Positions 10,655-28,230 of a DNA stretch of 64,000 nt are shown piece by piece. The notes beneath the pieces were generated by a model, which was given only the letters and a program-made list of their open reading frames with translations, was not told the origin of the DNA and did no database searches. The DNA is from Candidatus Planktophila lacus (GTDB lineage Bacteria; Actinomycetota; Actinomycetes; Nanopelagicales; Nanopelagicaceae): positions 1,178,001-1,242,000 of the forward strand of contig NZ_CP016783.1 in NCBI RefSeq assembly GCF_002288385.1, written 5' to 3'. How positions within the stretch are numbered: position 1 is the first letter of the stretch; each line of letters opens with the position of its first letter. A program made the position numbers and the translations under genes.

Positions 10655-10661
10655 TTATCTA

Positions 10662-12588: not shown

Positions 12589-14274
12589 GTGACTCTGACT
12601 CCGAGAAGTTCGCTTGTAACGCAAGGCCGTGACCGAAGCCCAAACCGCGCGATGTTGAGAGCGCTGGGTATGCAGGGCGATGATTTTAAGAAACCGCAGA
12701 TTGGTATTGCATCTTCTTACAACACCATTACCCCTTGCAATATGTCGCTGCGCACCGTTGCTGAAGATGTTGCCGCTGGAGTAAGCGCTAACGGCGGATT
12801 CCCAATGGAGTTTGGAACGATCACTGTTTCAGATGTAATTTCTATGGGACACGAAGGAATGCATTTCTCCCTCGTTAGTCGCGAAGTAATTGCAGATTCT
12901 GTGGAAACTGTTATGCAAGCAGAACGCTTAGATGCGATGGTAACTCTGGCGGGATGCGACAAAAGTATTCCGGCGATGCTTATGGCAGCTGCGCGCATAG
13001 ATGTGCCAAGTATCTTGATGTATGCCGGTTCTTTACTGCCTGGAAAAACTACTCTTCAAGATGGCACTGAGATTAAAGTAAATATCGTCACTTCTTTTGA
13101 AGCAGTTGGTGCAAATGCGCGTGGCTTAATGTCTGATGAAGATCTCGATCGCATTGAAAAGGCTGCCTGCCCAAGTGCCGGAACATGCGGTGGTATGTAC
13201 ACGGCAAACACGATGGCTAGCGCTTCAGAGGCGATGGGAATGTCACTTCCAGGCTCTTCATCTCCATCTGCAGTTGATAATCGCCGCGAACCGCTTGCAA
13301 AATTAGCGGGCGAATCTGTAATCAACTTACTTAAACTTGGAATCACAACCAGCGACATCATTACTAAAAAATCTTTGGAAAATGCCATCACGGTTGTCAT
13401 GGCACTTGGAGGATCTACAAATGCAGTGCTTCATATGCCAGCGATCGCTCACGAACTAGGTATTGACTTATCTCTCGATGATTTCAAGCGAATTGGCGCA
13501 CGCGTTCCATTGCTTGCAGATCTAAAACCATTCGGTGAATATGTGATGTTTGATCTCGATAAAGTTGGTGGCGTACCTGCAGTAATGAAGATTTTGCTTG
13601 ATGAGGGTCTGCTCTACGGCGATTGCATGACCGTAACTGGAAAAACAGTTGCTGAAAATCTAAAGGATGTAAATCCTCCTGCTGCTGATGGAAAGATTAT
13701 TTATCCAGCCGCTAAACCTTTTGGTAAAAATGGTGGCATAACTATTCTTAAAGGATCTCTCGCTCCTGAAGGTGCCGTTGTGAAGAACGCCGGTGTTGAT
13801 GAGGAGAAATTCCAAGGCGCTGCTCGAGTATTTGACCGCGAAGAATCAGCGATGCAGGCGCTCTCTGATGGCACAATTAAAAAAGGCGATGTAGTTGTTA
13901 TTCGCTACGAAGGTCCAAAGGGTGGTCCAGGAATGCGCGAAATGTTGATGATCACAAGTGCAATAAAGGGCGCAGGACTAGGAAGAGATGTATTGCTCGT
14001 TACCGATGGCAGATTCTCTGGTGGAACAACTGGACTTTGCGTAGGCCATATTTCACCGGAAGCTGTAGATGGTGGGCCGATTGGGTTAATTAAAGATGGC
14101 GATCAAATTTCGATCGATATCCCAAATGGAACTTTGGAGCTACTCGTTACACCCGAAGAGTTGCAAGAACGTGCCAAGAACTTTGTGCCACTCCCACCTA
14201 GATATACAAAGGGCGTGCTTTCTAAGTATGTGAAGTTGGTTGGTTCTGCAACCAACGGCGCAGTTTGTTCTTAA
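12589..14274 (+). CDS. ilvD: Dihydroxy-acid dehydratase
   Basis: The 561-residue protein is a full-length IlvD/Edd-family iron-sulfur dehydratase. It has the cluster cysteines in [10 protein letters not shown] and [15 protein letters not shown], the motif [12 protein letters not shown], and the C-terminal [21 protein letters not shown]. IlvD makes 2-oxo acids from dihydroxy acids in valine, leucine and isoleucine synthesis. The start is GTG. Its 3' end overlaps the convergent YeiH-family gene by four bases. A sugar-acid or sulfogluconate dehydratase of the same superfamily is possible given the neighbours, but [15 protein letters not shown] and the length are typical of IlvD. Confidence 0.88.
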
Positions 14275-15284
14275 AGACCAGTAATTTGAACTGCCGCTAA
14301 GGCAACGCCGGCAACAATTACCCAAGCAATTAAGCCCATCACCATGGGGCGTGGGCCAATTGCTCGAATCGATTTCCAGCGCACACTTGAACCAAGTGCA
14401 ACCAAACCAGCGCCAAGAAGTAACTTACTTACCAGAACGACTGCATCATGAATTCCTGAGGGAATATCAAGTGTGTTTTGGATCGTTGCAACTGCAATAA
14501 AGCCAATGACAAAGAATGGAATTAGTGGCACTTTCGTTGTCTTGGTACTAACCGCTATTCCATCTTTTTCATTTTGCATTGCAACTGAAGTTAAGTAGCG
14601 GCGGTGGCGAATCGAAAGAATTAGAACAATCGGAGCCAACATACATACTCGCGCCAATTTGATTACGACGGCAGATTGCACCGCCTCATCGCTCCAGACA
14701 GATGCAGTCGCAATTACCTGACCAACATCGTGTACGGCAGCACCAGCCCAGGCACCAAAAGTCTGATCACTTAGCCCAATTAGGTGGCCAATAAATGGCA
14801 GTGTAAAAATTGAAAGGGTGCCACAGAGCGAAATCAAAGCGATTGCATATGAGGTTTCTTCTTCGGTAGCGCGTGTTTGTGGGCGGATCGCAGCAACGGC
14901 AGTTGCACCACAGACTCCAAATCCAACGCCAATTAAAAGTCCAAGTTCACCACTCATCTTGAATACTTTTGATAGCGCCAAGATTCCAAAAATCGTGAAG
15001 GTCACAACCAAGATGACGGTTAGTACTCCCTTAAAGCCAATCGCCTTTAGCGATACAAGGCTTACTTGTGCGCCAAGAAGTGCGACTCCGATGCGCATTA
15101 ACTTCTTGCTCGCAAGCCCTGTTCCGGCAGCGGCAAAGCTTGGCCATCTACCAAAGTTTGCAACCGCGAATCCAAATGCGACGCAAAGTGCAAGTGGACT
15201 TACCGCTGGTTGAAAATCATTGATTAGAAAGGCAACGCCAACAATTGCAGCTATCAGACCTAAACCAGGAAGGTTCTTAACCAT
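14271..15284 (-). CDS. YeiH/COG2855-family membrane protein, putative sulfite/sulfate exporter
   Basis: The 337-residue integral membrane protein has about ten hydrophobic helices and the family signatures [35 protein letters not shown] and [15 protein letters not shown]. The family is annotated as a putative sulfate exporter. Related proteins sit in cysteate/sulfolactate and taurine degradation clusters, where they are thought to expel the sulfur anion. Here it is the last gene after suyA, suyB, slcC and comC and starts right after the comC stop (TAAATG). Export of sulfite or sulfate from sulfolactate cleavage is therefore the natural role. Transport has not been shown from sequence alone. 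Confidence 0.75.
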
Positions 15285-16292
15285 TTAGATCCCTAACTTG
15301 CTTGACCATTGCGCTAGCTGATCAGCGACCGAATCGGTGATCGTAATGTTTTCTGCAATGTCGGGACGTTCTGGATTAGAACGATTTGCTCCAGGTAAGC
15401 GGCCTCCGGCAGCGTTTACCAGCGCTGAAAAGTCTGCAGTTCTTGTATTTTCACCATCCACCGAAAGTTTTGCGCTATCGATAGCGATAATGAAATGTGA
15501 AATTTTCTGTGGATTGGCATCTTGCTCGCTAGCGAACATATCTGGAATATCTTTTGCCAGTGATGGACCAACCAACATTCCCGTTAGCGATTCAACAAGT
15601 ACTGCAATTGCATAACCTTTGACTCCACCTAGCGGCGCGAGCATTCCAGCAAGTGCTTCCTTAGCATCGGTTGTCGGGCTGCCATCTTTTGTAAACGCCC
15701 AGCCAGGTTCTAGTTCGGCACCTGCTTGCGCTTTTGCTTGAATCTTTCCACGTGCAACTGCGCTAGTTGCTAGATCAACAACAGTTGGCGGATTCGTTGG
15801 AATTCCCGCAGCAATTGGTGAAGTTGAAAGTAGCGCAGAGTTTCCACCCCATGGCGGCATTACTGCTGGCCCAGTGCTAAATGCGATTCCAACTAGTCCG
15901 CGATTAATCATCGGCCAGACATAAATTCCGAGAGCGCCACAGTGGTTGGATCGTCCAACTCCGACAGCGGCAATTCCATTTATTGCAGCGCGTTCAGCAG
16001 CAACTTCTGCCGCCTTCTGTAACTGCCAATGGCCAAGACCATCATCGCCATCAAAGACCACAAGGCTTGGTAGATCTGTTACTACCTTTAACTTCGCATC
16101 AGCTTTAATTCCACCTGCTTGCAAGCGCGCAAGATAGAAAGGAAGTCTCATTAAGCCGTGGCTTCCGATTCCCCAACGATCGCTGGCAACGATGCAACGA
16201 GCGGTTACATCTGCTTCTTGATCCGGAACACCGGCGGCTTTAAGAAGTGATTTCGCTAATTGCGTTGCAGAGCCAACAGTTAGCTGTGCCAT
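15285..16292 (-). CDS. comC: Ldh2-family 2-hydroxyacid dehydrogenase, candidate (R)-sulfolactate dehydrogenase
   Basis: The 335-residue protein is a malate/L-sulfolactate/ureidoglycolate dehydrogenase-family enzyme (RWGIGSHGLMRLPFYLARL, GIAAVGVGRSNHCGALGIYV with the catalytic His, and GVKGYAIAVLVESLTGML). ComC of this family interconverts (R)-sulfolactate and 3-sulfopyruvate. Paired with the D-isomer dehydrogenase encoded next to it, it would change sulfolactate from the S to the R form via sulfopyruvate, and SuyAB cleaves only the R form. Its start overlaps the slcC stop by one base. The context makes sulfolactate more likely than malate or lactate. Confidence 0.72.
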   Translation of the reverse strand: MAQLTVGSATQLAKSLLKAAGVPDQEADVTARCIVASDRWGIGSHGLMRLPFYLARLQAGGIKADAKLKVVTDLPSLVVFDGDDGLGHWQLQKAAEVAAERAAINGIAAVGVGRSNHCGALGIYVWPMINRGLVGIAFSTGPAVMPPWGGNSALLSTSPIAAGIPTNPPTVVDLATSAVARGKIQAKAQAGAELEPGWAFTKDGSPTTDAKEALAGMLAPLGGVKGYAIAVLVESLTGMLVGPSLAKDIPDMFASEQDANPQKISHFIIAIDSAKLSVDGENTRTADFSALVNAAGGRLPGANRSNPERPDIAENITITDSVADQLAQWSSKLGI

Positions 16293-17230
16293 TATTTTGC
16301 GCTCTCCTTGATTGCACCAACAGCATGTGTGGCAACTTCGTTATTTAAGACTTTCATAATATTTGAAACAAGGATTTCATTGATACGCAATTGGCTTTCC
16401 TTGGTAATCCCTGCAACGTGCGGAGTTAAGATCAAATTCGCAATTTGCTCCATTTCGCCTTTAACTGGTGGTTCTTGGGCGCGCACATCTAGGGCAGCGC
16501 CAGCAATAACCTTAGATTTCAAAGCTTCGATTAAATCGGCTTCGTTAATTACTTCACCGCGCCCCACATTTACCAATACGGCATCTGGCTTCATCAACTT
16601 CAAAGTTGCAGCGTTAATTGAGCCATTTGTTTCAGGGGTCGATGGCATATGGATGCTGATTACATCGCTCTCCTTTAAGACTTCTTCAAAAGACTTTAAT
16701 TCAATACCGCTTAGATTTTTCGCATAAGGATCGAAACCAATCATTTTGCATTGAAAACCTTGCAATAACTTTGCCGTCGCTAGCCCCGTTGCACCACATC
16801 CGAGCAACCCCCAGGTTAAGCCCGATAGCTCGCGGCCTGGTGTGCGGATCCAATTTCCTTCGCGCGTGACTTGATCATGCCCAGGGACATTTCGTAATAA
16901 AGAAAGCGCTAATCCCAGAGTTAGCTCGCCAACGCTTACCGCGTTAGCTCCAAGACCGGCAACGACGACGACACCTGCAGCATCGGCTGCCTTGATATCA
17001 ATGTTATCTAAGCCGACTCCGGCGCGAGCAATTACCTTTAACTTAGGTGCCGTAGCAATTACATCTGCAGTTACCTTCGTTCTGTTTCTTACAACTAGAG
17101 CAGTTGCATCTTTAAGAGCGCTCTTTAACTCATCGACGTTATTCCAAAGATCGTCATTTCGGACAATGGGAAAACTCCCCTCCAGCTTCTGGAAGGGAGT
17201 TCCCCATACATCTTCAGAGATGAGAATCAT
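16292..17230 (-). CDS. slcC: D-isomer-specific 2-hydroxyacid dehydrogenase, candidate (S)-sulfolactate dehydrogenase
   Basis: The 312-residue protein has the D-2-hydroxyacid dehydrogenase fold: ARAGVGLDNIDI, the NAD motif GLLGCGATGLATAK, and the catalytic triad Arg (NVGRGEVI), Glu (AQEPP) and His (TPHVAG). It lacks the C-terminal ACT domain of long 3-phosphoglycerate dehydrogenases. SlcC, the (S)-sulfolactate dehydrogenase of sulfolactate degraders, belongs to this family and is found beside comC and suyAB, as here. The ATG overlaps the suyB stop (TAATG). It would make 3-sulfopyruvate from (S)-sulfolactate with NAD. A phosphoglycerate dehydrogenase role is the main alternative. Confidence 0.72.
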   Translation of the reverse strand: MILISEDVWGTPFQKLEGSFPIVRNDDLWNNVDELKSALKDATALVVRNRTKVTADVIATAPKLKVIARAGVGLDNIDIKAADAAGVVVVAGLGANAVSVGELTLGLALSLLRNVPGHDQVTREGNWIRTPGRELSGLTWGLLGCGATGLATAKLLQGFQCKMIGFDPYAKNLSGIELKSFEEVLKESDVISIHMPSTPETNGSINAATLKLMKPDAVLVNVGRGEVINEADLIEALKSKVIAGAALDVRAQEPPVKGEMEQIANLILTPHVAGITKESQLRINEILVSNIMKVLNNEVATHAVGAIKESAK

Positions 17231-18396
17231 TATGCGGAGATATACAACTTTGTGAAGGTGAATTCACGGTGGCCCATAACTTCAGCCTTGCAGAGGCGTC
17301 CATTAACGGTCTGATTGATGACATCCATCATCATGTCGCCAGCCTTAGTTAAGTCATATTCGTAACGCAATAGACCTGAAACATCTAAATCGATGTGTTC
17401 AGTCATTGAGTTAGCAGTCTTAATGTTCGCTGTTAACTTGAGTACCGGAATAATTGGGTTACCAATCACATTGCCTTGTCCGGTTGGGAACAAGTGGATA
17501 ACTGCGCCGCCTGCTGCCATCAGAGTTACGCACTCTGCAGCTGCTGATGAAGAGTCCATGAAATAAAGGCCCTTCTTCTTTGGGTCTGGAGCTTCAGCTG
17601 GCTTGAGAACGCCAACAACTGGAACTGAACCAGTCTTAGCGATATTTCCAAGCGCCTTCTCTTCAATAGTTGTTAGCCCGCCAGCGATATTTCCTTGCGT
17701 TGGCTGTGAACCTAGAAGGTTTGCACCAGTTGCTTCAATTACCTTGATGTAATTGTCGTAAGTTGTTTGGAACAAGTTACGGCAAGCATCATCGATACAA
17801 CGGTCAGCGATCAAGTGCTCGCCACCAGTTAGCTCAGAAGTTTCGCCGAAGAATACGGTTCCACCTGCTGCTACCCAGCGATCGACTGCTTGTGATGTTG
17901 TTGGGCATGAGCCAAGACCTGATGTTGTATCTGATTCGCCGCACTTGATCGACATAATCATGTCGCCCATTTCGGCTGCTTCGCGCTCTAGGCCAGATGC
18001 ATCTTGCAAGAACATTGCGGCAACGCGGCTTGCTTCCTGAATTACTTGGAGATCGCCCTTACCTTCAATAGAGAACGCTGCAACCGGCTTACCAGTCTTA
18101 GCGATGCCATCGGCAACTCTCTGTGTCCACTTTGGTTCGATACCAATTACAACTACAGCGGCAACGTTTGCGTTAACACCTGTTCCAATTAGCGTATTAA
18201 AAGTTAGCTCTAGATCTTCGCCGAATTGCAAACGCCCAAATGCATGTGGGAGTGCAAGAGTTCCTGGAATTACCTTCGCAACAGCTTCTGCAGCAGCATT
18301 TGAAAGATCATCAAGGGGCAAAATAATGACGTGATTGCGGATACCCATGGTGCCGTTTTCGCGGCGGTATCCCATTAAGCGCGGCTTGCTTCCCAT
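17230..18396 (-). CDS. suyB: UxaA-family lyase large subunit, (R)-sulfolactate sulfo-lyase beta
   Basis: The 388-residue protein has UxaA/GarD C-terminal family motifs: YRRENGTMGIRNHV, LPHAFGRLQFGED, KCGESDTTSGLGSCPTT with metal or cluster-binding Cys, ENIAGG-like GNIAGGLTTIEEKALGNI and FPTGQGNVIGNP. The SAF-domain part is a separate small gene directly upstream, as in the two-subunit SuyAB that splits (R)-3-sulfolactate into pyruvate and sulfite. The neighbouring sulfolactate dehydrogenases and exporter favour this over altronate or galactarate dehydratase. The start ATG at 18394-18396 has a strong GAGGAG site six bases upstream and overlaps suyA by 22 bases. Confidence 0.76.
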   Translation of the reverse strand: MGSKPRLMGYRRENGTMGIRNHVIILPLDDLSNAAAEAVAKVIPGTLALPHAFGRLQFGEDLELTFNTLIGTGVNANVAAVVVIGIEPKWTQRVADGIAKTGKPVAAFSIEGKGDLQVIQEASRVAAMFLQDASGLEREAAEMGDMIMSIKCGESDTTSGLGSCPTTSQAVDRWVAAGGTVFFGETSELTGGEHLIADRCIDDACRNLFQTTYDNYIKVIEATGANLLGSQPTQGNIAGGLTTIEEKALGNIAKTGSVPVVGVLKPAEAPDPKKKGLYFMDSSSAAAECVTLMAAGGAVIHLFPTGQGNVIGNPIIPVLKLTANIKTANSMTEHIDLDVSGLLRYEYDLTKAGDMMMDVINQTVNGRLCKAEVMGHREFTFTKLYISA

Positions 18397-18677
18397 CGAT
18401 AACTCCTCATGTTGTGTGTGTGAATGTAATCGCCTTTTTTGATCGCAGCTGATGCCAGACCAACCTTGATTCCGTATTTAATAATCGCTTCGCCATTTGC
18501 AATATCTGCAAGGGCAAATTTGTGGCCGAGCGGAATCGCGTGATTTAAGATCGCGGTGCTCTCTGTTCCTTCTTTCACGGATCGCCCGTGAAGAGTTCCT
18601 GGTTGCATATCCGCCATAGCAACAGCGACATTGTCACCGTCGTGATGGAGCAGATATTGCGGTGGCGTAATTGCCAT
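18375..18677 (-). CDS. suyA: SAF-domain lyase small subunit, (R)-sulfolactate sulfo-lyase alpha
   Basis: The 100-residue protein is a single SAF (UxaA N-terminal) domain: YLLHHDGDNVAVAMADMQPG, HAIPLGHKFALADIANGEAI and KYGIKVGLASAAIKKGDYIH, ending at the HTHNM motif. It is the small partner of the SuyB-like subunit and overlaps its start. It is the first gene of a five-gene operon running to the YeiH-family exporter. A FadR-like palindrome lies 34-44 bases upstream, and the divergently read Gfo/Idh gene shares the 120-base control region. Confidence 0.76.
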   Translation of the reverse strand: MAITPPQYLLHHDGDNVAVAMADMQPGTLHGRSVKEGTESTAILNHAIPLGHKFALADIANGEAIIKYGIKVGLASAAIKKGDYIHTHNMRSYRWEASRA

Positions 18678-18710
18678 ATCTGACTTTCCTCTCTCGCATA
18701 AAGGGGGTAG

Positions 18711-18721
18711 TGGTCTGACCT
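18711..18721. promoter_or_regulatory. FadR/GntR-type operator A in the suyA-sqgA-like divergent promoter
   Basis: TGGTCTGACCT is a near-perfect inverted repeat of the FadR/FCD-GntR type (TGGT-N3-ACC-A/T). The surrounding string GTGGTCTGACCTCTTGGTG also occurs upstream of the isomerase gene at 27061 with two changes. It lies 34-44 bases before the suyA start codon. The probable ligand-responsive repressor is the GntR protein encoded at 21673-22389. Confidence 0.65.
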
Positions 18722-18783
18722 CTTGGTGGAGTCTAGGTTAGGTGAGCGTATTTCGTCTAGCCCTCTGCCCAAATTATCGTAAG

Positions 18784-18794
18784 TGGTCTAACCT
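18784..18794. promoter_or_regulatory. FadR/GntR-type operator B overlapping the -10 box of the sqgA-like gene
   Basis: TGGTCTAACCT repeats operator A with one change. Its last six bases, TAACCT (18789-18794), form a TANNNT -10 box that ends six bases before the ATG at 18801, so the transcript would be leaderless. A repressor bound here would cover the -10 directly. No convincing -35 box is visible. Confidence 0.62.
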
Positions 18795-18800
18795 GTGGCT

Positions 18801-19904
18801 ATGAAGAGCGAGCTTCGATACGGGGTTATAGGCGTCGGCAGCATGGGGCGCGAGCATATTTCCAACATCAAGGTGATGGGTGGAGCTGTCGTCACGGCCA
18901 TCAGCGACCCTCACCAGCCCTCCATTGAAGCGGCTCTAGAAATGGTTCCGGGGGCCAAGGTCTTTAGCGATCACCGCGCGCTCTTGGATTCTGGCTTAAT
19001 CGACGCCGTCGTAATTGCAACTCCAAATGACACCCATGCTGAGGTCTTAAAAGATGCGCTCGCAACAGAATTAGCGGTCTTTGTTGAAAAGCCACTTGCT
19101 ACAACTGTCGAAGATTTGAAATCAATTCTGTCTTGGGATGAAAAGCGTAGCGCTCTTACCTGGATGGGCTTGGAATATCGTTTTATGCCACCGGTGACTG
19201 AAGCAATTGCGAGAGCAAAAGAAGGTGAAGCCGGAAAAATACATCAGATTTCGATTCGCGAACATCGCGAACCTTTCTATCCAAAGGTAGATAGCTGGAA
19301 CCGCTTCACGGAAAGAACTGGTGGCACGCTTGTCGAAAAATGTTGCCACTATTTTAACTTGATGGATTTAGTGATTGGTGAACAACCTATCCGCGTATTT
19401 GCTTCAGGCGGTCAGAGCGTTAATCACTTAAATGAAAATTATGGCGGGCGCCGAGCAAATATGCTCGATAACGCATATGTAATTTTAGAATATGCCAGCG
19501 GTGCTCGTGGAATGCTCGATCTCTGTATGTTTGGCGAAGGTTCCTTCGATAAAGAGATTTTAACGATCATTGGAGATCAGGGAAAGATTGAATCATTCCT
19601 TCCTTCTCAAGTTGTTAAAGCCTCACGTCGTGATTCAGTTGGAAACCTCGATAACTGGGCAAGTGGTGCTAGCCGTGCGCGTGGCAGCGAAACAAAGATT
19701 GTTCATAACTACGATGTTAAGTACATGGGCCACCACTACGGTGCTTCATATATCGAACATACAAAATTCCGCGATGCGATTTTAAATTCCACTGCCGCTG
19801 AAGTTACCTTGCTAGATGGCGTAACGAGCGTTGTTACAGGGCTTGCTGCACACAAGAGCATCAACGAAGGTCGCGTCGTTGAAATCAAAGAACTTTGGGG
19901 CTAA
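18801..19904 (+). CDS. Gfo/Idh/MocA-fold protein, candidate NAD-dependent sulfoquinovosidase (SqgA/GH188-like)
   Basis: The 367-residue protein has an NAD-binding Rossmann motif (GVIGVGSMGREHISNI), VEKPLATT, YRFMPP, REHREPF (residues 153-159), and GGTLVEKCCHYFNLM in the substrate domain. Some members of this fold are NAD-dependent glycosidases. One group (SqgA, family GH188) releases sulfoquinovose from its glycosides in actinobacterial sulfoglycolysis clusters. No classical GH31 sulfoquinovosidase is in this cluster, so this is the best candidate. An ordinary sugar dehydrogenase is the alternative. I prefer ATG 18801 to GTG 18795 because of the -10 spacing. The stop abuts the convergent aldolase stop. 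Confidence 0.6.
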   Translation: MKSELRYGVIGVGSMGREHISNIKVMGGAVVTAISDPHQPSIEAALEMVPGAKVFSDHRALLDSGLIDAVVIATPNDTHAEVLKDALATELAVFVEKPLATTVEDLKSILSWDEKRSALTWMGLEYRFMPPVTEAIARAKEGEAGKIHQISIREHREPFYPKVDSWNRFTERTGGTLVEKCCHYFNLMDLVIGEQPIRVFASGGQSVNHLNENYGGRRANMLDNAYVILEYASGARGMLDLCMFGEGSFDKEILTIIGDQGKIESFLPSQVVKASRRDSVGNLDNWASGASRARGSETKIVHNYDVKYMGHHYGASYIEHTKFRDAILNSTAAEVTLLDGVTSVVTGLAAHKSINEGRVVEIKELWG

Positions 19905-20786: not shown

Positions 20787-21676
20787 GATCGCTCCTTTAG
20801 GAATTTATCTAGCTCTGCGGTATTTGGAATCATCGATTGACCATCTAGGCCACGACATGAAAGTGCGGCGACTGCATTAGCGCGCATTAAAGAGGCTTCG
20901 AGAGTGTGGCCTTGAATTACTTGAGCAAGAAGCGCTCCATGAAAAACATCGCCGGCGCCTAGCGTGCTTACAACATCAACGGCAAAGCCATCTGCGTGAA
21001 CTAAGCCTGATTCGCTGGAATAACCAGTACTTCCCGCAGAACCTTGCGTTGCAACCGTTATATTTTTTGCGTTAACCGCATCTCTTTCGACCGCTGTGCC
21101 CAGTTGAAGGTCGGGGTAACGAAGCGCCATCTGCCGATCAGTTGGAACAAATAGATCTACCTCTGAAGCCTCGAAATCAGCAACGTTGTAGCCGGCATCA
21201 AATGAAATCTTCGGTCCGTTTCCACGAGCGATCTTTTCAGACTTTAAACGGTTAATTCCAACGTGATCTACGTGGAGCCACTCAGCCTGACTAATCAACT
21301 TCTTCGCTTCTGCATTTAGATTTACTTGTTGCATTGGTTGACGGGTGCTAATTGCACGTGCGCTATGGGCCTTCGAAGCAACGATTACGCTTCCTGATGT
21401 TGCGCTAGCACCGATTGAAATCCCTGAAGTATCAACGCCTTCACGGACAAAAATGCGCAGAACTTCTGCGCCATCTTCATCATCGCCAATTGTTCCCACA
21501 ATCGCCGTTGAAACACCGAGGCGGCTTAGCGTTACTGCGGCAACAGCTGCCGGGCCACCACCTGCACGGGCTATCTGGTGGGCTAAAACTCTTTCATCTT
21601 CGCCTGGATAGTTATCGACTAAGGCGATTGTGTCGATAGTTATTACGCCGAGACAAACAACTTGAATATCGCTCAA
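20783..21676 (-). CDS. PfkB-family sugar kinase, candidate 6-deoxy-6-sulfofructose kinase
   Basis: The 297-residue ribokinase-fold protein has the substrate-side GGGPAAVAAVTLSRLG (residues 39-54) and the ATP-site motif LGAGDVFHGALL with the catalytic Asp243. The GGGPAA and GAGDVFHGAL strings match YihV, the sulfofructose kinase of E. coli. It would phosphorylate C1 of sulfofructose for the adjacent aldolase, with which it overlaps by four bases. It also overlaps the regulator gene upstream by four bases, so kinase and aldolase are translationally coupled to it. I cannot identify its sulfonate-binding residues with confidence. Confidence 0.76.
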   Translation of the reverse strand: MSDIQVVCLGVITIDTIALVDNYPGEDERVLAHQIARAGGGPAAVAAVTLSRLGVSTAIVGTIGDDEDGAEVLRIFVREGVDTSGISIGASATSGSVIVASKAHSARAISTRQPMQQVNLNAEAKKLISQAEWLHVDHVGINRLKSEKIARGNGPKISFDAGYNVADFEASEVDLFVPTDRQMALRYPDLQLGTAVERDAVNAKNITVATQGSAGSTGYSSESGLVHADGFAVDVVSTLGAGDVFHGALLAQVIQGHTLEASLMRANAVAALSCRGLDGQSMIPNTAELDKFLKERS

Positions 21677-22389
21677 CGCTCATTCTTTTCATTTGCATCG
21701 GCAAGGGCTACTGCACGTGCGCCAGAAATATGTTGCAGCGTTAACTTAGAGACAAGTTCTCCATCTCTTGCTTCAATCGCATCCAAAATAGCGTTGTGCT
21801 CGCGCTTTGATACATCTGATCTGCCTGGCAAACGCAACGTGGTTTCCATCGACATCTTCATTACATCTTGCAAGACGTTGAGAGTTTGGTTGATAAATCT
21901 ATTTTCGGCGATTCCGACGATTGTTAGGTGAAACTTCGCATCTAACGCCTGCAATTGGTTGTAATCAATTGGCGTCGTTGAAGTAACTGTCTCGATCTGA
22001 TTTAAAGTTGCACGAAGTAAGCGGATATCTTCCTTGGTTGCCTTTGCCGCTGCCCACTTTGATGCCGGAACTTCCAGAACTTCACGAGCATCAAAGAGCT
22101 CATTTAAGCCGTGGGTGGTGGCCATCATCGAAGCGCGCAGTTCTTGCGCAACTATCGGTTCTTGAACAAAAGTGCCTTGTCCATGCTTTATTTGCACTAA
22201 GCCTTGGGCCTGCAGAATATGTAGAGCTTCGCGCAGAGAAGGACGACTAACCGCCAACAATTCCGCGAGAGTTCGCTCTGATGGCAGGCGGTCGTTTGGC
22301 TTTAGATTCTGAATTTCAATTAGTTCAACTAATTGTGTAGCAATGCGCGCTGCACGTTGTGGAGCAAGCGGGGTTACAGCGCTCATCAT
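21673..22389 (-). CDS. GntR-family (FadR/FCD) transcriptional regulator of the sulfonate-sugar cluster
   Basis: The 238-residue protein has an N-terminal winged helix (RLPSERTLAELLAVSRPSLREALHILQAQGLV, about residues 33-64) and HGQGTFV. An all-helical FCD ligand domain follows, with metal-binding Asp/His residues (LQALDAKFHLTIVGIAENRF and ISGARAVALADA). It sits inside the operon between the permease and the kinase and overlaps the kinase start (ATGA). Four FadR-like palindromes in this region (18711, 18784, 27062, 27189) are its likely targets. The inducer is probably a sulfonated sugar or sulfolactate, which is inference. Confidence 0.85.
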   Translation of the reverse strand: MMSAVTPLAPQRAARIATQLVELIEIQNLKPNDRLPSERTLAELLAVSRPSLREALHILQAQGLVQIKHGQGTFVQEPIVAQELRASMMATTHGLNELFDAREVLEVPASKWAAAKATKEDIRLLRATLNQIETVTSTTPIDYNQLQALDAKFHLTIVGIAENRFINQTLNVLQDVMKMSMETTLRLPGRSDVSKREHNAILDAIEARDGELVSKLTLQHISGARAVALADANEKNER

Positions 22390-23205
22390 TTAACCCTTTA
22401 CCGCTCCTGCTGTAAGACCGGCGATAAACGAGCGTTGCATCATGAGGTACATGATAACCATTGGAAGTGATGCCACCATCACAGCGGTGAAGAGCATCGA
22501 GAAACTAACGAAATATTCACCGCGGTATGCCAACATCGCAAGTGGCAGAGTTTTCTTATCTGATTCTTGAATAAGCAAAAGTGGCCAGAGAAGATCGTTC
22601 CAGTTGATTACAAATAGGAAAATCGCTGTTGCACCCATCGCAGGTCGGGATAACGGTAGGGCGATAGAGCGATAGATGCGAAGCGGCGATGCGCCATCTA
22701 CCTCAGAAGCTTCATACATATCTCGAGATATCTCTCGGAAGAAAGCGGTAAGAATAAAGATAGAAATTGGCAGGGTTGTGGTCACATTGATAATCACTAA
22801 GCCAAAGAACGAGTTGGTAAGTCCCAAATCTCGGAAGATGTAATAGATCGGAACAAGGTTGATCTGGGCGGGAATTGCCAAGCCGAGTGCAAATAAAGTT
22901 GCCAATACTTTTCCGGAAACTGTGATCATTCGGGCGATTGCAAATGAGGCCAGGCTGGCAAATAGCAAGGTGAAAATTACGGATAGCAGGGTTACAACTA
23001 CGCTATTTCTAAAACTAACTTCAAGGTCGCTGTCGCTAAGCAATCTCTTGTAGTTATCCAGACTCCAGACATCTGGGAGAGAAAGTGGCTTGTTATAGAC
23101 CTCAGAGTCGGTCTTGAAGGAGCCTAGAACAACAATAAGCGAAGGAATCAGAATTAGCGCGGCAAAGAAAGTAAGCGAGACAATCCGAGAACTCTTAAAG
23201 ATCAT
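22390..23205 (-). CDS. ABC sugar transporter permease, MalG/UgpE type
   Basis: The 271-residue protein has six predicted membrane helices and the permease EAA loop YEASEVDGASPLRIYRSIALP, which contacts the ATPase. It belongs to the carbohydrate uptake family 1 permeases and pairs with the permease gene ten bases upstream. It ends right before the regulator gene. With the binding protein it would import sulfoquinovose or its glycerol glycoside. No ATPase gene is in the cluster, so a shared MsmX-like ATPase encoded elsewhere must serve it. Confidence 0.88.
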   Translation of the reverse strand: MIFKSSRIVSLTFFAALILIPSLIVVLGSFKTDSEVYNKPLSLPDVWSLDNYKRLLSDSDLEVSFRNSVVVTLLSVIFTLLFASLASFAIARMITVSGKVLATLFALGLAIPAQINLVPIYYIFRDLGLTNSFFGLVIINVTTTLPISIFILTAFFREISRDMYEASEVDGASPLRIYRSIALPLSRPAMGATAIFLFVINWNDLLWPLLLIQESDKKTLPLAMLAYRGEYFVSFSMLFTAVMVASLPMVIMYLMMQRSFIAGLTAGAVKG

Positions 23206-23215
23206 TTCTTATCCC

Positions 23216-24064
23216 TCACTTCTCGTATCGTCCGCTAAATGCCCGGCGTTGCAACCAAGTTATAAGCACCATAGTGGCAACCATAAAGATTGTCTGTGCC
23301 GCCGCGTATCCAAGTCGAAGTTCATTAAACAAAGTGAAATAAACCAAGGTGCTAAAAATACTTGTTGAGTTATTTGGTCCCGCGGTTGAATTTGTCATAA
23401 CCATGATCAAATCAAAGGCGCGGAACGATTGAATAGTCGTATATGCCATAACCACCAAGGTCGTAGGCATCGCCATTGGCCAAGTTATCTTTGTAAATTG
23501 CTTCCAGCGAGATGCGCCATCTACCTCTGCGGCCTCATAAAGTTCTTTGGGAATCTGCTGCAGGCCGGCGATATAGACAACCATCATCTGACCGGTGTGG
23601 AACCAGACTTGGCTAAAAGCGATCGCATAGAGCGCGCTGCTTTCACTACCCAGCCAGTTAAGTGCAAAGGAAGGCAATCCAACGCTATTAAAGAATAGGT
23701 TGATCGCTCCGAAGTTTGGATCATATAGAAAGAGCCAGATCATTCCCACAGAGACTGAAGAGAGAATTGTTGGGAAGAAGTAAAGAGTACGAAGTGCAAT
23801 ATTAACTTTGGTGTTTTTAACTAAGAAGACTGCAAAAATCAGAGCCAGCGCAGTTTGGAAAATAACAACCAGGAATGTGAATTCAATGTTGTTACCTAGC
23901 GTTTTATAGAAGAGATCGTCATTGGTAAGTAGATTTGTAAAGTTTCTAAAGCCCACATTTTCAGGCTCGGTGATGCCATCCCAACGTCGTGTGGCAAATT
24001 GCAGGTTTTGCAGCGCTGGATATAAATAAAAAGCAAGGAAGAGAATCATCGCCGGTGCGCCCAT
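23216..24064 (-). CDS. ABC sugar transporter permease, MalF/UgpA type (start uncertain)
   Basis: The first ATG gives 282 residues with six membrane helices and the EAA loop YEAAEVDGASRWKQFTKITWP. The frame stays open upstream and encodes a plausible basic permease N-terminus, RKKRKKDALVYYV, before this ATG. No ATG, GTG or TTG exists there before a stop. The only upstream candidate is a rare ATT at 24164-24166, next to the stop of the binding-protein gene. Either the protein starts at 24064 and loses part of its first helix, or it uses a non-canonical start. A strong hairpin lies in this stretch. Confidence 0.82.
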   Translation of the reverse strand: MGAPAMILFLAFYLYPALQNLQFATRRWDGITEPENVGFRNFTNLLTNDDLFYKTLGNNIEFTFLVVIFQTALALIFAVFLVKNTKVNIALRTLYFFPTILSSVSVGMIWLFLYDPNFGAINLFFNSVGLPSFALNWLGSESSALYAIAFSQVWFHTGQMMVVYIAGLQQIPKELYEAAEVDGASRWKQFTKITWPMAMPTTLVVMAYTTIQSFRAFDLIMVMTNSTAGPNNSTSIFSTLVYFTLFNELRLGYAAAQTIFMVATMVLITWLQRRAFSGRYEK

Positions 24065-24113
24065 TACATAATAAACAAGCGCATCTTTCTTACGCTTTTT
24101 ACGGGTAGCAGGA

Positions 24114-24144: not shown

Positions 24145-24165
24145 CGGTAGCTAGTTTTGTCTTAA

Positions 24166-25614
24166 TTAGCCTTGCAACTTCTGCTTGATCTGCTTAGAGA
24201 AGTCAGGCAGAACATCGTCTGGGCTCTTGCCACCAACGATTTGAATGAGGGCATCCTGAGTCAAATCTGAAACTGAAGTATTCAGAATCAAGAAGCGTGG
24301 AGCCAACATTGTGTTCTTAGCCTGGAAGGCAGATGTATTTAGCAAGTCAACGTTTGCTGAGTAATCAACATCTAGAACGTTAACGTGCTGAGTAGTTGCA
24401 ACTGCATAGATCGCTGCAACTGGACCTGTAGCCAAATATGACAAGAAGGATTTTGCAATCCGCTGGTCAGTTGGATTTGACTTAGCATTTACACTGAGGT
24501 TGAAGGTGTTGTTCATAATTCCTTCAGCGACAACTTTGCCATCTGTTAGAACCATGCTCATCAACTGCATCTTGCCGGTTAGCGCTGGGGCCAAAGTCTT
24601 GATTGAACCCATTGAGAATGTACCGGTAGGAAGAATTGGTGACTTACCTGTTGCGAACAAGTTGTAAGCAGCAGCTTCAGTAACACCTGTTGGGTTATCT
24701 GGGAAGCATCCTGCGTTACGTAGCTTGACGTAGATATCTGCAACGCCCTTGAACCATGTTGAAGTCAGATCGATCTTTCCTGAGTTCAAATCTGCCAAGT
24801 TTGCAGATAACGCATCGTAATCTGCTGCAGAGTTCATTAGAGCAGAGTTTGAGATCTGCGCTGCTTGTCCACGTGTTGCTCCTGGCCATGCAAGAGGAAC
24901 ATATCCCTTGGCCTTGGCATCCTTACACCAGGCGACCCAACCAGTTAGGTTCTTAGGAATATCCCACTTCTCTTTTGCCCAGAGTTCAGTGTTATAGACC
25001 GGGTTGTTAAATAGGTAGTGATAAGGAACTGCGAGTACGCGACCCTTTTCAACTCCCGCTGTTAGACCCTTTGATACGAGGTTGCGCTTTACGAAACGCT
25101 CGTTAGTTAGATCTGCTGGCAATCCACTCTTAACGAAGTCGTTGAAGATTGAACCACGTGCTGCAGCGAATAGAGCAGCCTTTGGATTTGCGAGGATCTG
25201 CACGCGTGCAGTTGCGTTGTAATCAGTTGTTGTCTTGATTACCTGAGTAATTTTTGTACCTGGGTACTTTGCTTCGTAGTTTGTAATGATCTTTTCGAAG
25301 TGGGCTTTATCTTCTGGGCGATAGTGCCAGAATTCAATTGATCCAGCTGGTGGAACAATCTCCTTGATTGGAGCACCGAGGCTTGAGCTTAGGCGAACCT
25401 TCTGCCAAGTCAGTTTTCCATTTGATCCAGCCTTGCAAACTAGTGATGTTGAACTTGTTCCTGTTGAAACACCTTCAACCTTGCAAGCCTTTCCTAAGAC
25501 TTCTCCAGCTGCAAATGCCGATGGCAATGTTGAAACAGCGACTGCGAATGCAACCACAGCTACTGCGCCAAGGCGACGTGCACTAAAGGAAGTCATTCCT
25601 TGAGTTTTCATCAT
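24166..25614 (-). CDS. ABC sugar transporter substrate-binding protein with extra N-terminal Cys-pair domain
   Basis: The 482-residue protein starts with a Sec signal peptide (RRLGAVAVVAFAVAVSTLPS, AFAAGE). About 45 residues with two Cys (GKACKVEG, SLVCKAGSNGKLTWQKV) follow, then a family 1 solute-binding protein from about residue 75 (GSIEFWHYRPEDKAHFEKII). There is no lipobox Cys at the cleavage site, so anchoring may differ from the usual lipoprotein form. AGGA lies six bases before ATG 25612-25614; a second ATG follows directly. It should bind the imported sugar, predicted to be sulfoquinovose or a glycoside. The N-terminal module may tie the protein to the cell surface. Confidence 0.85.
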   Translation of the reverse strand: MMKTQGMTSFSARRLGAVAVVAFAVAVSTLPSAFAAGEVLGKACKVEGVSTGTSSTSLVCKAGSNGKLTWQKVRLSSSLGAPIKEIVPPAGSIEFWHYRPEDKAHFEKIITNYEAKYPGTKITQVIKTTTDYNATARVQILANPKAALFAAARGSIFNDFVKSGLPADLTNERFVKRNLVSKGLTAGVEKGRVLAVPYHYLFNNPVYNTELWAKEKWDIPKNLTGWVAWCKDAKAKGYVPLAWPGATRGQAAQISNSALMNSAADYDALSANLADLNSGKIDLTSTWFKGVADIYVKLRNAGCFPDNPTGVTEAAAYNLFATGKSPILPTGTFSMGSIKTLAPALTGKMQLMSMVLTDGKVVAEGIMNNTFNLSVNAKSNPTDQRIAKSFLSYLATGPVAAIYAVATTQHVNVLDVDYSANVDLLNTSAFQAKNTMLAPRFLILNTSVSDLTQDALIQIVGGKSPDDVLPDFSKQIKQKLQG

Positions 25615-25649
25615 TTGTAGTCCTTTGCTAATCGAGGGTTTTAGTTGTT

Positions 25650-27050
25650 TTACCATTCTGTGAGGGGTATCCCTAACATCTTTGCCATTTGACGAATACC
25701 CGGACGCACATCTATCCACGAGATGACTAGATGATGCGGATATCCGCCAGTGACTATTCCATTTACTAACGCAGCAGCATCAGGTTGAGTGATAACCGTT
25801 GCGGTATTACCTTGGAAGTGATTGGGAGCAGGGATAGATTCCCCTCGGCTCACAACCATTCGTAAACCCGTGCTATTGCTCGGATCTACATCCCGATCAA
25901 TACGGAACAGCGTTACTGGTCCGGTCTTGAGCGGAAAATTACCTGCAACGCCTAGTTTGCGATTGCAGTGTGTTGTTTGCGTTGCATTTTGTGGATCTGC
26001 CGCCAACTTTGTCGCAGCTGATCCGCAATGCCATAGTCGAACTAAACCTTTATCTGCATCTAGATCGACGATATCTACCAAATAGTTTTCATCTGAACCC
26101 AGTGACTCGCAAACCATCATGGTTACGGCGCCCAGCACATCGCGTTCGCAGGTTGTGACTGTGCCGCGATCTGAAAGGCGGCCAAGGGAAGAACAGATAC
26201 AGGCACCCATTTCCGTTGGAAATTCTGGCCAGCAACGGATAGCAATTGCATCTAGGGACTCTTCTTCGCGCCAAGTATCTAGCGCAACTTCAACACCATA
26301 AACTTTCTTTGCCTCATCAACGTTTACTGAAGAAAGAGAAGGCTGCGCTGCTACCGCGTTTGCATAGGCTAATTCACGCGCTTCTTCCTTAACTTCAGCA
26401 ATTCGGCCAAATGCATCTGTAATTGTTATCTGGCGAACATCAAGTCCAAAATACTTATTCAACTGTTTGCCATCAAATACACATGGAGTAAATCCAATTG
26501 GAGCATCTCCAACAGCGCCGATCTTTTTGCCCTTTAACCAAGCAAAAGCTTTTTCAACTTCGCCAGCGGGTGCAAATTCTCCAACAATAGATTTTGGAGC
26601 AGTCGCCTCTGGAAGTTTGCCGGCGAGCGCATCACGAATTGCACTGCGCACATTCGCTTCATCGGCGTTTCCATGGATATGACGGATTGATTGCCCAACA
26701 TTCATCAGAGCATGTGCCGCAAGATTTACGCCGCACATTGAATTCAATTTAAGTCTTTCGCCAACTTCACCAGGTTCGCGCATCGACCAACCAAGGATGG
26801 GTCCATTAACTTTTCCAAAGAGTTCAACTGCCGGTGATGCATCTGCAAATGAGGCCATAAATAAAATGTGAAGGTCAGCCGCTGGAAGTTTTACCGCAGC
26901 GAGATCTTCAACAGTCATTACGAGTTCACTTGGCCCTACTACTGATGCGCCTAGTTCATTTAACAGTGCACGCGCGCTATCGAAATTAGCCTGGGCGCAG
27001 GTCAGATCAAAGGTAGGTCGCGCTAACGCGACGAGAGCTACAGTGCTCAA
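25650..27050 (-). CDS. L-fucose/L-arabinose isomerase-fold protein, candidate sulfoquinovose isomerase
   Basis: The 466-residue protein has the FucI/AraA-like layout: an N-terminal alpha/beta half (DLHILFMASFADASPAVELF), a middle part with IAIRCWPEFPTEMGACICSS, and a C-terminal part with a metal-site-like RLWHCGSAA and the terminal GGYPHHLVISWID. Shortened FucI-like proteins act as sulfoquinovose-sulfofructose isomerases in sulfoglycolysis clusters that lack the AGE-family YihS, and no YihS-like gene is present here. The start is TTG (27048-27050) with GGAGG four bases before it. The gene has its own candidate promoter with an operator-like palindrome at 27062-27072. Confidence 0.68.
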   Translation of the reverse strand: MSTVALVALARPTFDLTCAQANFDSARALLNELGASVVGPSELVMTVEDLAAVKLPAADLHILFMASFADASPAVELFGKVNGPILGWSMREPGEVGERLKLNSMCGVNLAAHALMNVGQSIRHIHGNADEANVRSAIRDALAGKLPEATAPKSIVGEFAPAGEVEKAFAWLKGKKIGAVGDAPIGFTPCVFDGKQLNKYFGLDVRQITITDAFGRIAEVKEEARELAYANAVAAQPSLSSVNVDEAKKVYGVEVALDTWREEESLDAIAIRCWPEFPTEMGACICSSLGRLSDRGTVTTCERDVLGAVTMMVCESLGSDENYLVDIVDLDADKGLVRLWHCGSAATKLAADPQNATQTTHCNRKLGVAGNFPLKTGPVTLFRIDRDVDPSNSTGLRMVVSRGESIPAPNHFQGNTATVITQPDAAALVNGIVTGGYPHHLVISWIDVRPGIRQMAKMLGIPLTEW

Positions 27051-27061
27051 TTTGCCTCCAG

Positions 27062-27072
27062 TGGTAAGACCT
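27062..27072. promoter_or_regulatory. FadR/GntR-type operator C before the isomerase gene
   Basis: TGGTAAGACCT lies 12-22 bases upstream of the TTG start. Its context GTGGTAAGACCTCTTGGTG differs from operator A (18710) at two central bases only. A possible minus-strand promoter, TTGACT (27104-27109) with a 17-base spacer and a weak -10, lies just upstream. A bound repressor would block initiation or early elongation. Confidence 0.62.
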
Positions 27073-27165
27073 CTTGGTGAAGGGTGCCACTGGCGACCTA
27101 GCGAGTCAATGGGAAAGCGCGAGTTTTTCGCTTGTTATGAGACCGTTATGAGCAGGGCGATGGGG

Positions 27166-28230
27166 TTATCTTTGAAGGATGAAGGGTCTGGTCCGACCAT
27201 TGACCTCAAAAGCGGGCCAATTCGGATCGTTGGTAAGTACCTCAACCCCCGACTTGGTCGCCAAGATCGTATCCTCAGCCTTCCAGCCTGTACCCGTTGG
27301 GTTCCATGCGATCGGTTGGTTGTGCGCAATCAATCTGGTTGTTCCCTGATTTGCTGGCCAATCACGAGGAAGGAAGCCGGTTGGCCCACCTTGGTGATGG
27401 TTCTGCCACTCATCCTTATCGAAACCATTTAGCGGGTAAGCAGCGATCGCAGCATTTATTGGATCTGAGAAAGGCCGACCAACCACAGTGGCATCGAACA
27501 TCGCCGCCTCAACTTTAAATATTGATTCGTAGCCGTTTATCTCCTCTTGAGATAACTGCCCAAAACTGACAATTCTGGTTATTGATGCGATTAGCCCCTT
27601 ATGTTTTGCGCATATTGAGGCCGAGACACGGTCTCCAATTGGCGTTGAGGTCGGTAGTGGATGGCGAAACTTGGTGACTCGCTCTTGGCCGGCAACGCCT
27701 AGAAATGCGATCTCTAAATTAGAGCGCCATAAGGAACTAGTTATTAGCGCTGCCACATCGATTTCTCGATCGCTACTTTTTACCTCTTTCATAGCGCTTC
27801 CTAGAGCTGATGCGGCTTCCAGGCAGATCTTCTTAAAGCGTTCTACATCATCTGCAATAAGTGAGCCGCGAATAATCTCGATCTCAACGCCTAGATCAAC
27901 TCTGTCACCACCAGGTTGATCAGAACCAACTTTTGCTCCTGTTGGCAATAACGGATCGCGTCCTTGTGACCACGGCACGGTTTGTACTGAAACTTCTGCA
28001 GGAAACTCTTCAGCAATTAATCGTGGCGCCTCGACAACATTTGTTATTGCAACAGCTGAATCTTTTGTAATGATTAAATCAAAACACGCCGCATCGATAG
28101 TTGTTGGAACATGTGCTCGTCCAGAAATGGCCCAAGCCAGATTTGGATTACGGCGGAGCACAAATGCATCAAGCCCTTTTTCAGCCATTAAATCTCGTAC
28201 TGGTTGGATCCGAAGATTAAATGCGCTCAT
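27166..28230 (-). CDS. Pita-bread (creatinase/M24 peptidase) fold protein lacking metal ligands
   Basis: The 354-residue protein has a creatinase-type N-terminal domain (RIQPVRDLMAEKGLDAFVL) and an M24 pita-bread domain. In active M24 peptidases two Asp in the D-x-G ... D-I-T-R motif bind metal. Here the segment reads SASICAKHKGLIASITR (residues 203-219), with Ser in both places, and a later Glu position reads Asn (IAWNPTGTG). A His pair remains (NHHQGGPTGF). It is therefore probably not a metallopeptidase; it could be a metal-free hydrolase like creatinase. It is the first gene before the isomerase on the same strand. Its role in sulfonate-sugar use is unknown. Confidence 0.72.
   Translation of the reverse strand: MSAFNLRIQPVRDLMAEKGLDAFVLRRNPNLAWAISGRAHVPTTIDAACFDLIITKDSAVAITNVVEAPRLIAEEFPAEVSVQTVPWSQGRDPLLPTGAKVGSDQPGGDRVDLGVEIEIIRGSLIADDVERFKKICLEAASALGSAMKEVKSSDREIDVAALITSSLWRSNLEIAFLGVAGQERVTKFRHPLPTSTPIGDRVSASICAKHKGLIASITRIVSFGQLSQEEINGYESIFKVEAAMFDATVVGRPFSDPINAAIAAYPLNGFDKDEWQNHHQGGPTGFLPRDWPANQGTTRLIAHNQPIAWNPTGTGWKAEDTILATKSGVEVLTNDPNWPAFEVNGRTRPFILQR
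27189..27199. promoter_or_regulatory. FadR/GntR-type operator D inside the 3' end of the M24-like gene
   Basis: TGGTCCGACCA is a perfect inverted repeat around the central C and the best FadR-type site in the window. It lies about 140 bases upstream of the isomerase start and inside the last codons of the M24-like gene. Together with operator C it could allow looping or roadblock control. It could also be a chance match constrained by the coding sequence. Confidence 0.5.

Follow-up and report, generated by a model that had tools for sequence, protein, structure and literature searches.

Introduction

Turnover of sulfoquinovose (SQ) is thought to proceed mostly in two steps divided between species, and a 2025 paper calls the presence of both steps in one bacterium unusual (PMC12421959). 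The closest described one-cell route is that of the proteobacterium Paracoccus wurundjeri Merri, in which sulfofucose is converted to sulfolactaldehyde (SLA) by an Entner-Doudoroff (ED)-type pathway and mineralisation to pyruvate and sulfite through SlcC/ComC and SuyAB is proposed, with growth, proteomic and metabolite data (PMC12421959). Both halves have also been predicted in one cell for Ensifer sp. HO-A22 (PMC10599462). Described here is a stretch of 64,000 nucleotides of Candidatus Planktophila lacus (contig NZ_CP016783.1, bases 1178001-1242000; the window, to which all positions refer unless stated otherwise). It carries an island of about 14 kb (14271-28230) that probably encodes most of a route from SQ to pyruvate and sulfite within one cell. 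Compared with P. wurundjeri, the window holds a predicted Embden-Meyerhof-Parnas (EMP)-type route for SQ, in a streamlined actinobacterium and in one compact island.

The upstream half of the island resembles the sulfo-EMP cluster of Arthrobacter sp. AK01/AK04 in its YihV- and YihT-type enzymes, its Gfo/Idh gene (GH188 in PMC10755693) and its ATP-binding cassette (ABC) transporter, but the Arthrobacter cluster has a YihS-type isomerase and an SLA dehydrogenase, and sulfolactate is excreted (PMC8873060). Hybrid sulfo-EMP/EMP2 pathways, in which an SqvD-type isomerase can join sulfo-EMP enzymes, have been described in Actinobacteria (PMC9594981, PMC12890257, PMC10599462). The cluster of Pseudonocardia nigra shares related isomerase, kinase, aldolase, transporter and M24-like genes with the window; it differs in a GH31 glycosidase, an SLA dehydrogenase-like aldehyde dehydrogenase (ALDH) and TauE, and no SuyAB was present in the stretch fetched. 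The downstream half contains the same genes as the suyAB-slcC-comC module of Paracoccus, Cupriavidus and Chromohalobacter (PMC9594981). In Paracoccus aestuarii the gene order is similar (suyA-suyB-transporter-slcC-comC-exporter) and ends in a putative sulfate exporter. The known modules are accompanied by a C3-sulfonate importer, whereas in the window the four genes are coupled to sulfoglycolysis.

A survey published in 2026, covering 21,845 aquatic genomes, reported frequent sulfoquinovose monooxygenase (sulfo-SMO) clusters in Actinomycetota (PMC13372026); the word 'nanopelagic' does not occur in its main text. No paper containing both sulfoquinovose and Planktophila was found in the open-licence literature. 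Conversion of a sulfosugar to sulfite through SuyAB in one cell (published for sulfofucose, predicted for Ensifer) and hybrid sulfo-EMP pathways in Actinobacteria are thus already known. New, as far as the literature searched extends, are the joined sulfo-EMP and SuyAB island as a stable trait of an order, and a lead on a protein of the M24 fold encoded in it.

Organisation of the island and proposed route

The island lies in a single-contig genome of 1,410,107 bases that is 99.98% complete, and its isomerase is 98% identical to the homologue of Candidatus Planktophila lacus MMS-21-148, which most likely places it among the acI actinobacteria, tiny and abundant bacteria of lakes. All of its genes were intact open reading frames (ORFs), and the gene set and positions given in an earlier note on this DNA were confirmed; the M24-like gene falls within those positions, though that note did not name it. 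Two runs of minus-strand genes stand on either side of a single plus-strand gene, which encodes a GH188-like protein. The upstream run, from 28230 down to 19905, consists of the M24-like gene, the isomerase, a binding protein, two permeases, a GntR regulator, a kinase and an aldolase, and the downstream run, from 18677 down to 14271, of suyA, suyB, slcC, comC and yeiH.

In the proposed route the ABC transporter would import SQ or SQ glycosides, and SQ would be freed by a GH188-type, nicotinamide adenine dinucleotide (NAD)-dependent sulfoquinovosidase. An isomerase of the SftI/SqvD type would convert SQ to sulfofructose, with the M24-fold protein perhaps speeding ring opening or mutarotation of SQ for this enzyme. 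Sulfofructose would be phosphorylated by the YihV-like kinase and split by the YihT-like aldolase to dihydroxyacetone phosphate and (S)-sulfolactaldehyde. An ALDH encoded outside the island (best candidate a succinate-semialdehyde dehydrogenase (SSADH)-like ALDH at genome bases 1317529-1318953) would oxidise the latter to (S)-sulfolactate, which SlcC and ComC would invert via sulfopyruvate to (R)-sulfolactate. SuyAB would cleave this to pyruvate and sulfite, and YeiH would export the sulfite, so that both C3 halves of SQ could serve as carbon. From gene kinship, synteny, co-occurrence and the conserved sulfonate-binding residues of the GH188-like protein we infer every reaction, the transport substrates, the export step and the role of the M24-fold protein.

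Predicted sulfoglycolysis enzymes and transport

The predicted sulfofructose-1-phosphate aldolase (19905-20786, minus strand) is a class I, YihT-like enzyme. It matched the solved sulfofructosephosphate aldolase 7ag1 at 252 bits and tagatose aldolases at 67 bits, and the Schiff-base Lys192 that the earlier note had proposed lies in the motif DLYKAEVP. A LacD/tagatose aldolase, the grouping which that note had named as speaking against its assignment, was ruled out by the same scores. The PfkB kinase (20783-21676, minus strand), a proposed sulfofructose kinase, had the sulfofructose kinase 7ag6 as its best PDB match (98 bits; runner-up 75 bits); the YihV-like assignment therefore holds by a modest margin.

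The FucI-like protein (25650-27050, minus strand) is the predicted SQ isomerase, nearest to the SftI/SqvD type. Its sole NCBIfam match was the SftI model NF048012, at 272 bits (E 7e-81) against an equivalog cut-off of 700; a Zymomonas homologue encoded beside a GH188-like gene scored 288 bits to the same model.

The candidate NAD-dependent sulfoquinovosidase of the Gfo/Idh family (18795-19904, plus strand) matched 8qc3 in the PDB search at 343 bits and 8qc2 at 340 bits, followed by the oxidoreductase 8zn9 at 282 bits and the next Gfo/Idh protein at 105 bits; 8qc2-8qc8 are presumably the sulfoquinovosidases of PMC10755693, with which the residue numbering fits. The side chains of ArSqgA that touch SQ are Lys107, Tyr136, Arg166, Lys172, Glu189, His193 and His321, of which Arg166 and Lys172 are the two sulfonate-binding residues (PMC10755693). 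All seven are kept in the window's protein, as K99, Y128, R158, K164, E181, H185 and H314, which upholds the suggestion of the earlier note.

These contacts bear on the identity of the substrate, which might be another 6-sulfo sugar (sulfofucose, sulforhamnose) rather than SQ. The isomerase lies below the SftI cut-off, and in the literature consulted the tandem scheme has been shown by growth for sulfofucose only (PMC12421959). P. wurundjeri, however, degrades sulfofucose by an ED-type route, while the island combines YihT- and YihV-like enzymes with a GH188-like protein whose SQ contacts are conserved, and a substrate other than SQ is considered very improbable.

An ABC sugar importer is present, as had been noted earlier, with a binding protein (24166-25611), a GlcT/UgpA-type permease (23216-24064) and a GlcU/MalG-type permease (22390-23205), all on the minus strand and all with general sugar-transport matches only; the matches of the binding protein to sugar-binding proteins were weak, and its position in the island is conserved. 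The ORF of the binding protein extends to 25719, and the start at MKTQGM was our choice. Among related loci (L008-L045) the transporter genes are much more divergent than the other genes of the island, with binding proteins often 48-59% identical, and one locus (L031) has no transporter genes between the isomerase and GntR; the transporter seems to have been swapped between relatives. A GntR/FadR-type regulator is encoded at 21673-22389 (minus strand).

Predicted sulfolactate cleavage and fate of sulfite

The small subunit of the predicted (R)-sulfolactate sulfo-lyase, SuyA (18375-18677, minus strand), contains a SAF domain and was 44% identical to that of Rhodococcus koreensis, 40% to that of C. 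pinatubonensis and 34% to that of Paracoccus aestuarii. Its gene adjoins suyB (17230-18396, minus strand), which encodes the large subunit, with identities to the same three species of 73, 59 and 58%. In a tree SuyB grouped with the SuyB proteins of these three species in a clade of eight rows (support 100/100), separate from five further UxaA-family proteins, although the outgroups drew a long-branch warning. In a plasmid collection (best 40 of 314 records) the identities dropped straight from 56.6% to 39%. Altronate or galactarate dehydratase was ruled out by this gap and the tree; the SuyAB assignment made earlier thus stood, and the grouping with altronate dehydratases that had been set against it did not appear.

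Sulfoglycolysis yields (S)-sulfolactate and SuyAB cleaves the (R) form (PMC9594981, PMC12421959), so a dehydrogenase pair of the SlcC/ComC kind is needed between them. SlcC, the predicted (S)-sulfolactate dehydrogenase (16292-17230, minus strand), belongs to the 2-hydroxyacid dehydrogenase family, with phosphoglycerate dehydrogenases as the nearest solved structures. It was 50% identical to the protein encoded at the SlcC position in R. koreensis and 36% to that in P. aestuarii. ComC, the predicted (R)-sulfolactate dehydrogenase (15285-16292, minus strand), was 53 and 36% identical to the proteins of the same two species, and its best NCBIfam match was L-sulfolactate dehydrogenase (NF040650; 202 bits, cut-off 500). 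Both genes stand beside suyAB, and their reading as sulfolactate dehydrogenases in the earlier note was borne out, with ComC below its model cut-off. The genes are ordered suyA-suyB-ALDH-MFS (major facilitator superfamily)-oxidoreductase-slcC-comC in R. koreensis, and in C. pinatubonensis hpsN and hpsO lie beside suyAB.

The last gene of the run (14271-15284, minus strand) encodes a YeiH-family protein proposed to export sulfite (PF03601, 238 bits; TIGR00698, 175 bits against a cut-off of 232.6). It was 31% identical over 242 residues to the exporter that occupies this position in the suy operon of P. aestuarii. No member of the NIR_SIR or Oxidored_molyb families was found in the genome, other sulfite-oxidising families not having been searched for; the same searches in 14 control genomes found NIR_SIR in 11 and Oxidored_molyb in 9. 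It is therefore unlikely that the sulfite is assimilated or oxidised by a SorA-type enzyme; YeiH-mediated export explains the findings most simply, and the sulfite probably leaves the cell through this protein. The intergenic region between the divergent suyA and GH188-like genes (18678-18794) is a possible shared control region.

Linkage of the two halves

The order (Nanopelagicales) was represented by 296 genomes, of which 108 were good genomes, one per species. The isomerase and SuyB were both present in 32 of the 108 and both absent from the other 76, and in none did either occur alone (Fisher p about 4e-28; the genomes are related, so this value overstates independence). In the whole set the isomerase was found in 65 genomes, SuyB in 63 and both in 58, where the isomerase count takes in strong matches and near-identical fragments and leaves out matches at about 20-26% identity. 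The 12 genomes with only one of the two were every one less than 90% complete. The gene order of the island recurs in Planktophila and relatives, in agreement with the synteny for which the earlier note had asked; the arrangement is not due to chance.

Among 39 loci from named genomes, one (L046) was unrelated and one (L038) was the P. nigra cluster. The isomerase and SuyB both lay within the fetched stretch in 15 of the 39, and most of the others stopped earlier at a contig or flank edge. Two loci (L012 in G237 and L041 in G235) contained inserted genes, with suyB further along the same contig.

A nucleoside hydrolase was inserted in L013 and L017 (PF01156 in L013), and in L018 and L025 an amidohydrolase reading like NagA (PF01979 in L018) together with a NagB-like neighbour lacking a Pfam match. 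L032 had an ADP-ribosylglycohydrolase and a PfkB kinase, and L012 and L041 a large glycan-type locus, which by eye included its own ABC genes in L041.

The two runs might instead be independent modules, one for sulfoglycolysis with excretion of a C3 sulfonate and one for scavenging sulfolactate or 2,3-dihydroxypropane-1-sulfonate from outside. A suy operon by itself is known to serve as a scavenging module, and no SLA dehydrogenase in the island joins the halves. The halves nevertheless co-occur in 32 of 32 good genomes with neither alone in any, the GH188 gene sits between them, and the window's suy operon lacks a C3-sulfonate importer, as opposed to the tripartite tricarboxylate transporter or MFS genes in Paracoccus, Cupriavidus and Rhodococcus. 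Two independent modules are accordingly judged improbable. If the single-cell route is true, a sizeable share of the order, as represented by 32 of the 108 good genomes, would have access to all six carbons in the sulfolipid sugar and could export sulfite, and algal and cyanobacterial sulfolipid would be linked directly to sulfite release in lakes.

Sulfolactaldehyde dehydrogenase and other points against the route

Several observations weigh against the single-cell route as drawn here. The scores of the isomerase, ComC and YeiH lie below their NCBIfam cut-offs, and the binding protein has no SQ-specific match. The island has no SLA dehydrogenase, with no ALDH match of the genome falling there and no reductase-like ORF. 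The earlier note had called the island probably complete and had both halves operating in one cell; those of its enzyme assignments that could be tested stood, and gene kinship and co-occurrence favour the joint operation, but completeness is not supported, as no gene for the step from SLA to sulfolactate, which would connect the halves, is present in it.

Seven ALDH-family matches were found in the genome, five of them full-length, and the best candidate was the SSADH-like ALDH (L003) named above. It matched the solved SSADH 3jz4 at 465 bits, the ALDH 3ek1 at 456 bits and 8c54, which we take to be the SLA dehydrogenase of R. leguminosarum, at 451 bits. Its best NCBIfam model is SSADH, below the cut-off, and its identity to the ALDH encoded in the Rhodococcus suy cluster is just 40%. 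The gene belongs to the core set, occurring at E <= 1e-110 in 216 of 296 genomes, and is present in 30 of 32 good genomes with the island and in 70 of 76 without it (p = 1; the linkage test covered this one of the five full-length ALDHs). The proposed sulfonate-binding pair of SLA dehydrogenase is Arg171/Arg289 (PMC10599462). Arginines are present in the motifs MATRK and MRNGG of the window genome's enzyme, and their equation with that pair is a candidate motif reading of our own; SSADHs share the pair. Being core and unlinked to the island, this ALDH stays only a candidate for the SLA dehydrogenase. The ALDH of the P. nigra cluster and its counterpart in the Rhodococcus suy cluster share 66% identity, and the clusters of Arthrobacter YA7-1, Deinococcus peraridilitoris and Zymomonas each include one gene annotated as SSADH. 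For P. wurundjeri too, no classical SLA dehydrogenase is reported, although sulfolactate forms (PMC12421959).

A further difficulty is genus g8, five loci of which (L077, L078, L079, L081, L082) have the island without the YihT aldolase between the kinase and suyA. A search of the order set at E <= 1e-20 found no YihT homologue in its g8 genomes. Replacement by a class II fructose-bisphosphate aldolase was considered and rejected: no intact gene was present among nine g8 genomes searched, eight lacking it and one (G050) having a fragment of 90 amino acids with a stop.

The M24-fold protein

The first gene of the upstream run (27166-28230, minus strand) encodes a prolidase/creatinase-like protein. 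Pfam found M24 (28 bits) and Creatinase_N only, and no aldose-epimerase domain (PF01263). The predicted model (predicted local distance difference test score 89.9) has the pita-bread fold, and in the PDB fold comparison the best Z was 31.8, for prolidases, against about 29 for creatinase. The metal ligands of M24 metallopeptidases, which we take to be Asp, Asp, His, Glu and Glu, were placed on the prolidase alignment; four of the five are replaced by S205, S216, G282 and N310, and E319 is kept. None of 27 aligned homologues keeps either Asp, the His or the first Glu. Invariant among the homologues, in the numbering of the window's protein, are His278, Gln280, Arg289, Asn310, Lys317 and Glu319. 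In a tree the seven SQ-linked actinobacterial M24-like proteins formed one clade (97/95), with a Deinococcus protein outside.

The gene is conserved. It lies upstream of the isomerase in all 30 acI loci that reach there, directly in 27 and with inserted genes in three (L018, L025, L032); seven further acI loci begin in or at the isomerase. It was also found in 15 of 16 further isomerase loci, the remaining one (L091) ending before the place and one of the 16 (L083) coming from the same genome as L034, and in the P. nigra cluster and two actinobacterial clusters (L165, L166) in which the kinase, aldolase, isomerase, transporter and GH31 genes are related. A plasmid cluster of Deinococcus peraridilitoris combines an M24-like gene with GH31, a LacD-like aldolase, PfkB, a FucI-type isomerase, an ABC transporter and an SSADH-type ALDH. 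Its isomerase matched the SftI model in part only (139 bits), and this cluster may serve another sugar. As sulfoquinovosidases, the GH31 proteins of these two clusters (P. nigra and Deinococcus, in that order) are doubtful: an alpha-xylosidase model scored higher (448 and 483 bits; cut-off 606) than PRK10426, presumably the YihQ model (220 and 241 bits; cut-off 553). The reading of the window's island does not depend on them.

Isomerases of the SqvD type are believed to require the open-chain form of SQ, which SqvB or YihR normally provides (PMC9594981), and spontaneous mutarotation of SQ is slow, with a half-life of 299 min when extrapolated to no phosphate (PMC5902678). Since the sugar pathways in which the M24-like gene occurs all have to interconvert anomers or open rings, and since SQ mutarotates slowly, we propose, at about even confidence, that the protein represents a metal-free branch of the prolidase/creatinase fold that has so far gone unrecognised, and that this branch functions in aldose mutarotation and displaces GalM/YihR/SqvB in galactose, arabinose, xylose and SQ pathways. 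In the island it would supply the FucI-type isomerase with open-chain SQ or the correct anomer. The six invariant residues form the proposed mutarotase site. The role would be that of the GalM/YihR aldose 1-epimerases and SqvB, which likewise stand beside isomerase or kinase genes of sugar pathways; the M24-fold protein differs from them in its pita-bread fold and in having no aldose-epimerase domain by Pfam. Among the matches listed in the open-licence literature, nothing relevant tied mutarotase to M24, pita-bread or creatinase.

In a sample of the phylum the M24-like gene was detected at E <= 1e-25 in 31 of 396 genomes, including the window's own, and the contexts in the other 30 were read. 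Galactose, arabinose, FucI-type or sulfoglycolysis-like clusters accounted for 16 of these. In 12 the gene was within or close to galT/galE/galK (L173, L175, L177, L179, L181, L192-L198), for example between galT and galE in L195-L197 and beside an alpha-galactosidase in L181; in L173 it was about 1.1 kb from galK, and in L193 only galK was seen before the contig end. Pfam/NCBIfam confirmed galactokinase in the four cases tested, galT in the one tested and the GH36 gene, the rest being assigned by tblastn to these. In L172 the gene lies between araA and ribulokinase (both confirmed), in L180 beside a FucI-like isomerase and a class II aldolase, and in L165 and L166 in the sulfoglycolysis-like clusters. 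Among the remaining 14 contexts an IlvD/Edd-type dehydratase was near in L178 (Pfam), L183 and L184 (tblastn), galT and galK were about 3.6 kb away in L170, sugar-kinase-like genes were present in L200, and L191 and L199 were at contig edges. Thermus plasmids carry xylA-xylB-M24, and Pantoea and a cyanobacterium have the gene in other contexts.

A different accessory role in sugar pathways, such as hydrolysing glycosylamine or lactone by-products or sensing sugars as a pseudo-enzyme, is a quite plausible alternative, though held with less than even confidence. The fold relatives of the protein include C-N hydrolases (prolidase, creatinase, ectoine hydrolase), and in three contexts (L167, L169, L176) no sugar genes were visible beside the homologue. 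An aldose-epimerase gene is present in six of the 30 homologue-bearing genomes, including both with sulfoglycolysis-like clusters (G380, G466), and the window's genome has one PF01263 member elsewhere (48 bits), which tells against a mutarotase. A mutarotase is favoured by the 16 sugar clusters and the Thermus xylA-xylB-M24 arrangement, whose common need is anomer interconversion or ring opening. It is favoured also by the cluster on the Zymomonas mobilis plasmid pZZM402 (class II aldolase, aldose epimerase, FucI-type isomerase, GH188-like gene, SSADH), where no M24 gene is among the annotated features and an aldose epimerase is found instead.

The distribution of PF01263 was compared on the same sample. 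None was found in the 12 galT/galE/galK genomes, six of which are less than 90% complete. PF01263 is held by six of the 30 M24-bearing genomes and by 34 of 80 sampled controls that lack the M24-like gene (p = 0.044), the controls being about every fifth genome by number and not family-matched. By family, the holders among M24-bearing and other genomes were 0/2 and 0/10 in f13, 0/15 and 1/4 in f19, and 0/3 and 2/3 in f10. A genome-wide exclusion between the M24-like and aldose-epimerase genes is weakly supported and confounded by lineage; PF01263 absence proves little, since it is also missing from 46 of the 80 controls and is held by G380 and G466. If the mutarotase proposal is true, the family would explain 'M24 family metallopeptidase' annotations in sugar operons, including galT/E/K operons in whose genomes no GalM-family gene was found.

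Neighbouring genes

A separate run in the window (3942-11696) encodes a RuBisCO-like protein, a fusion of RhaD with a short-chain dehydrogenase/reductase (SDR), an MtnA-type isomerase, an SDR, a D-apionate-lactonase-like protein (NF049900, E 2e-78, below cut-off) and a Gfo/Idh protein. It looks like a pathway of the apiose/apionate type or for a related branched sugar.

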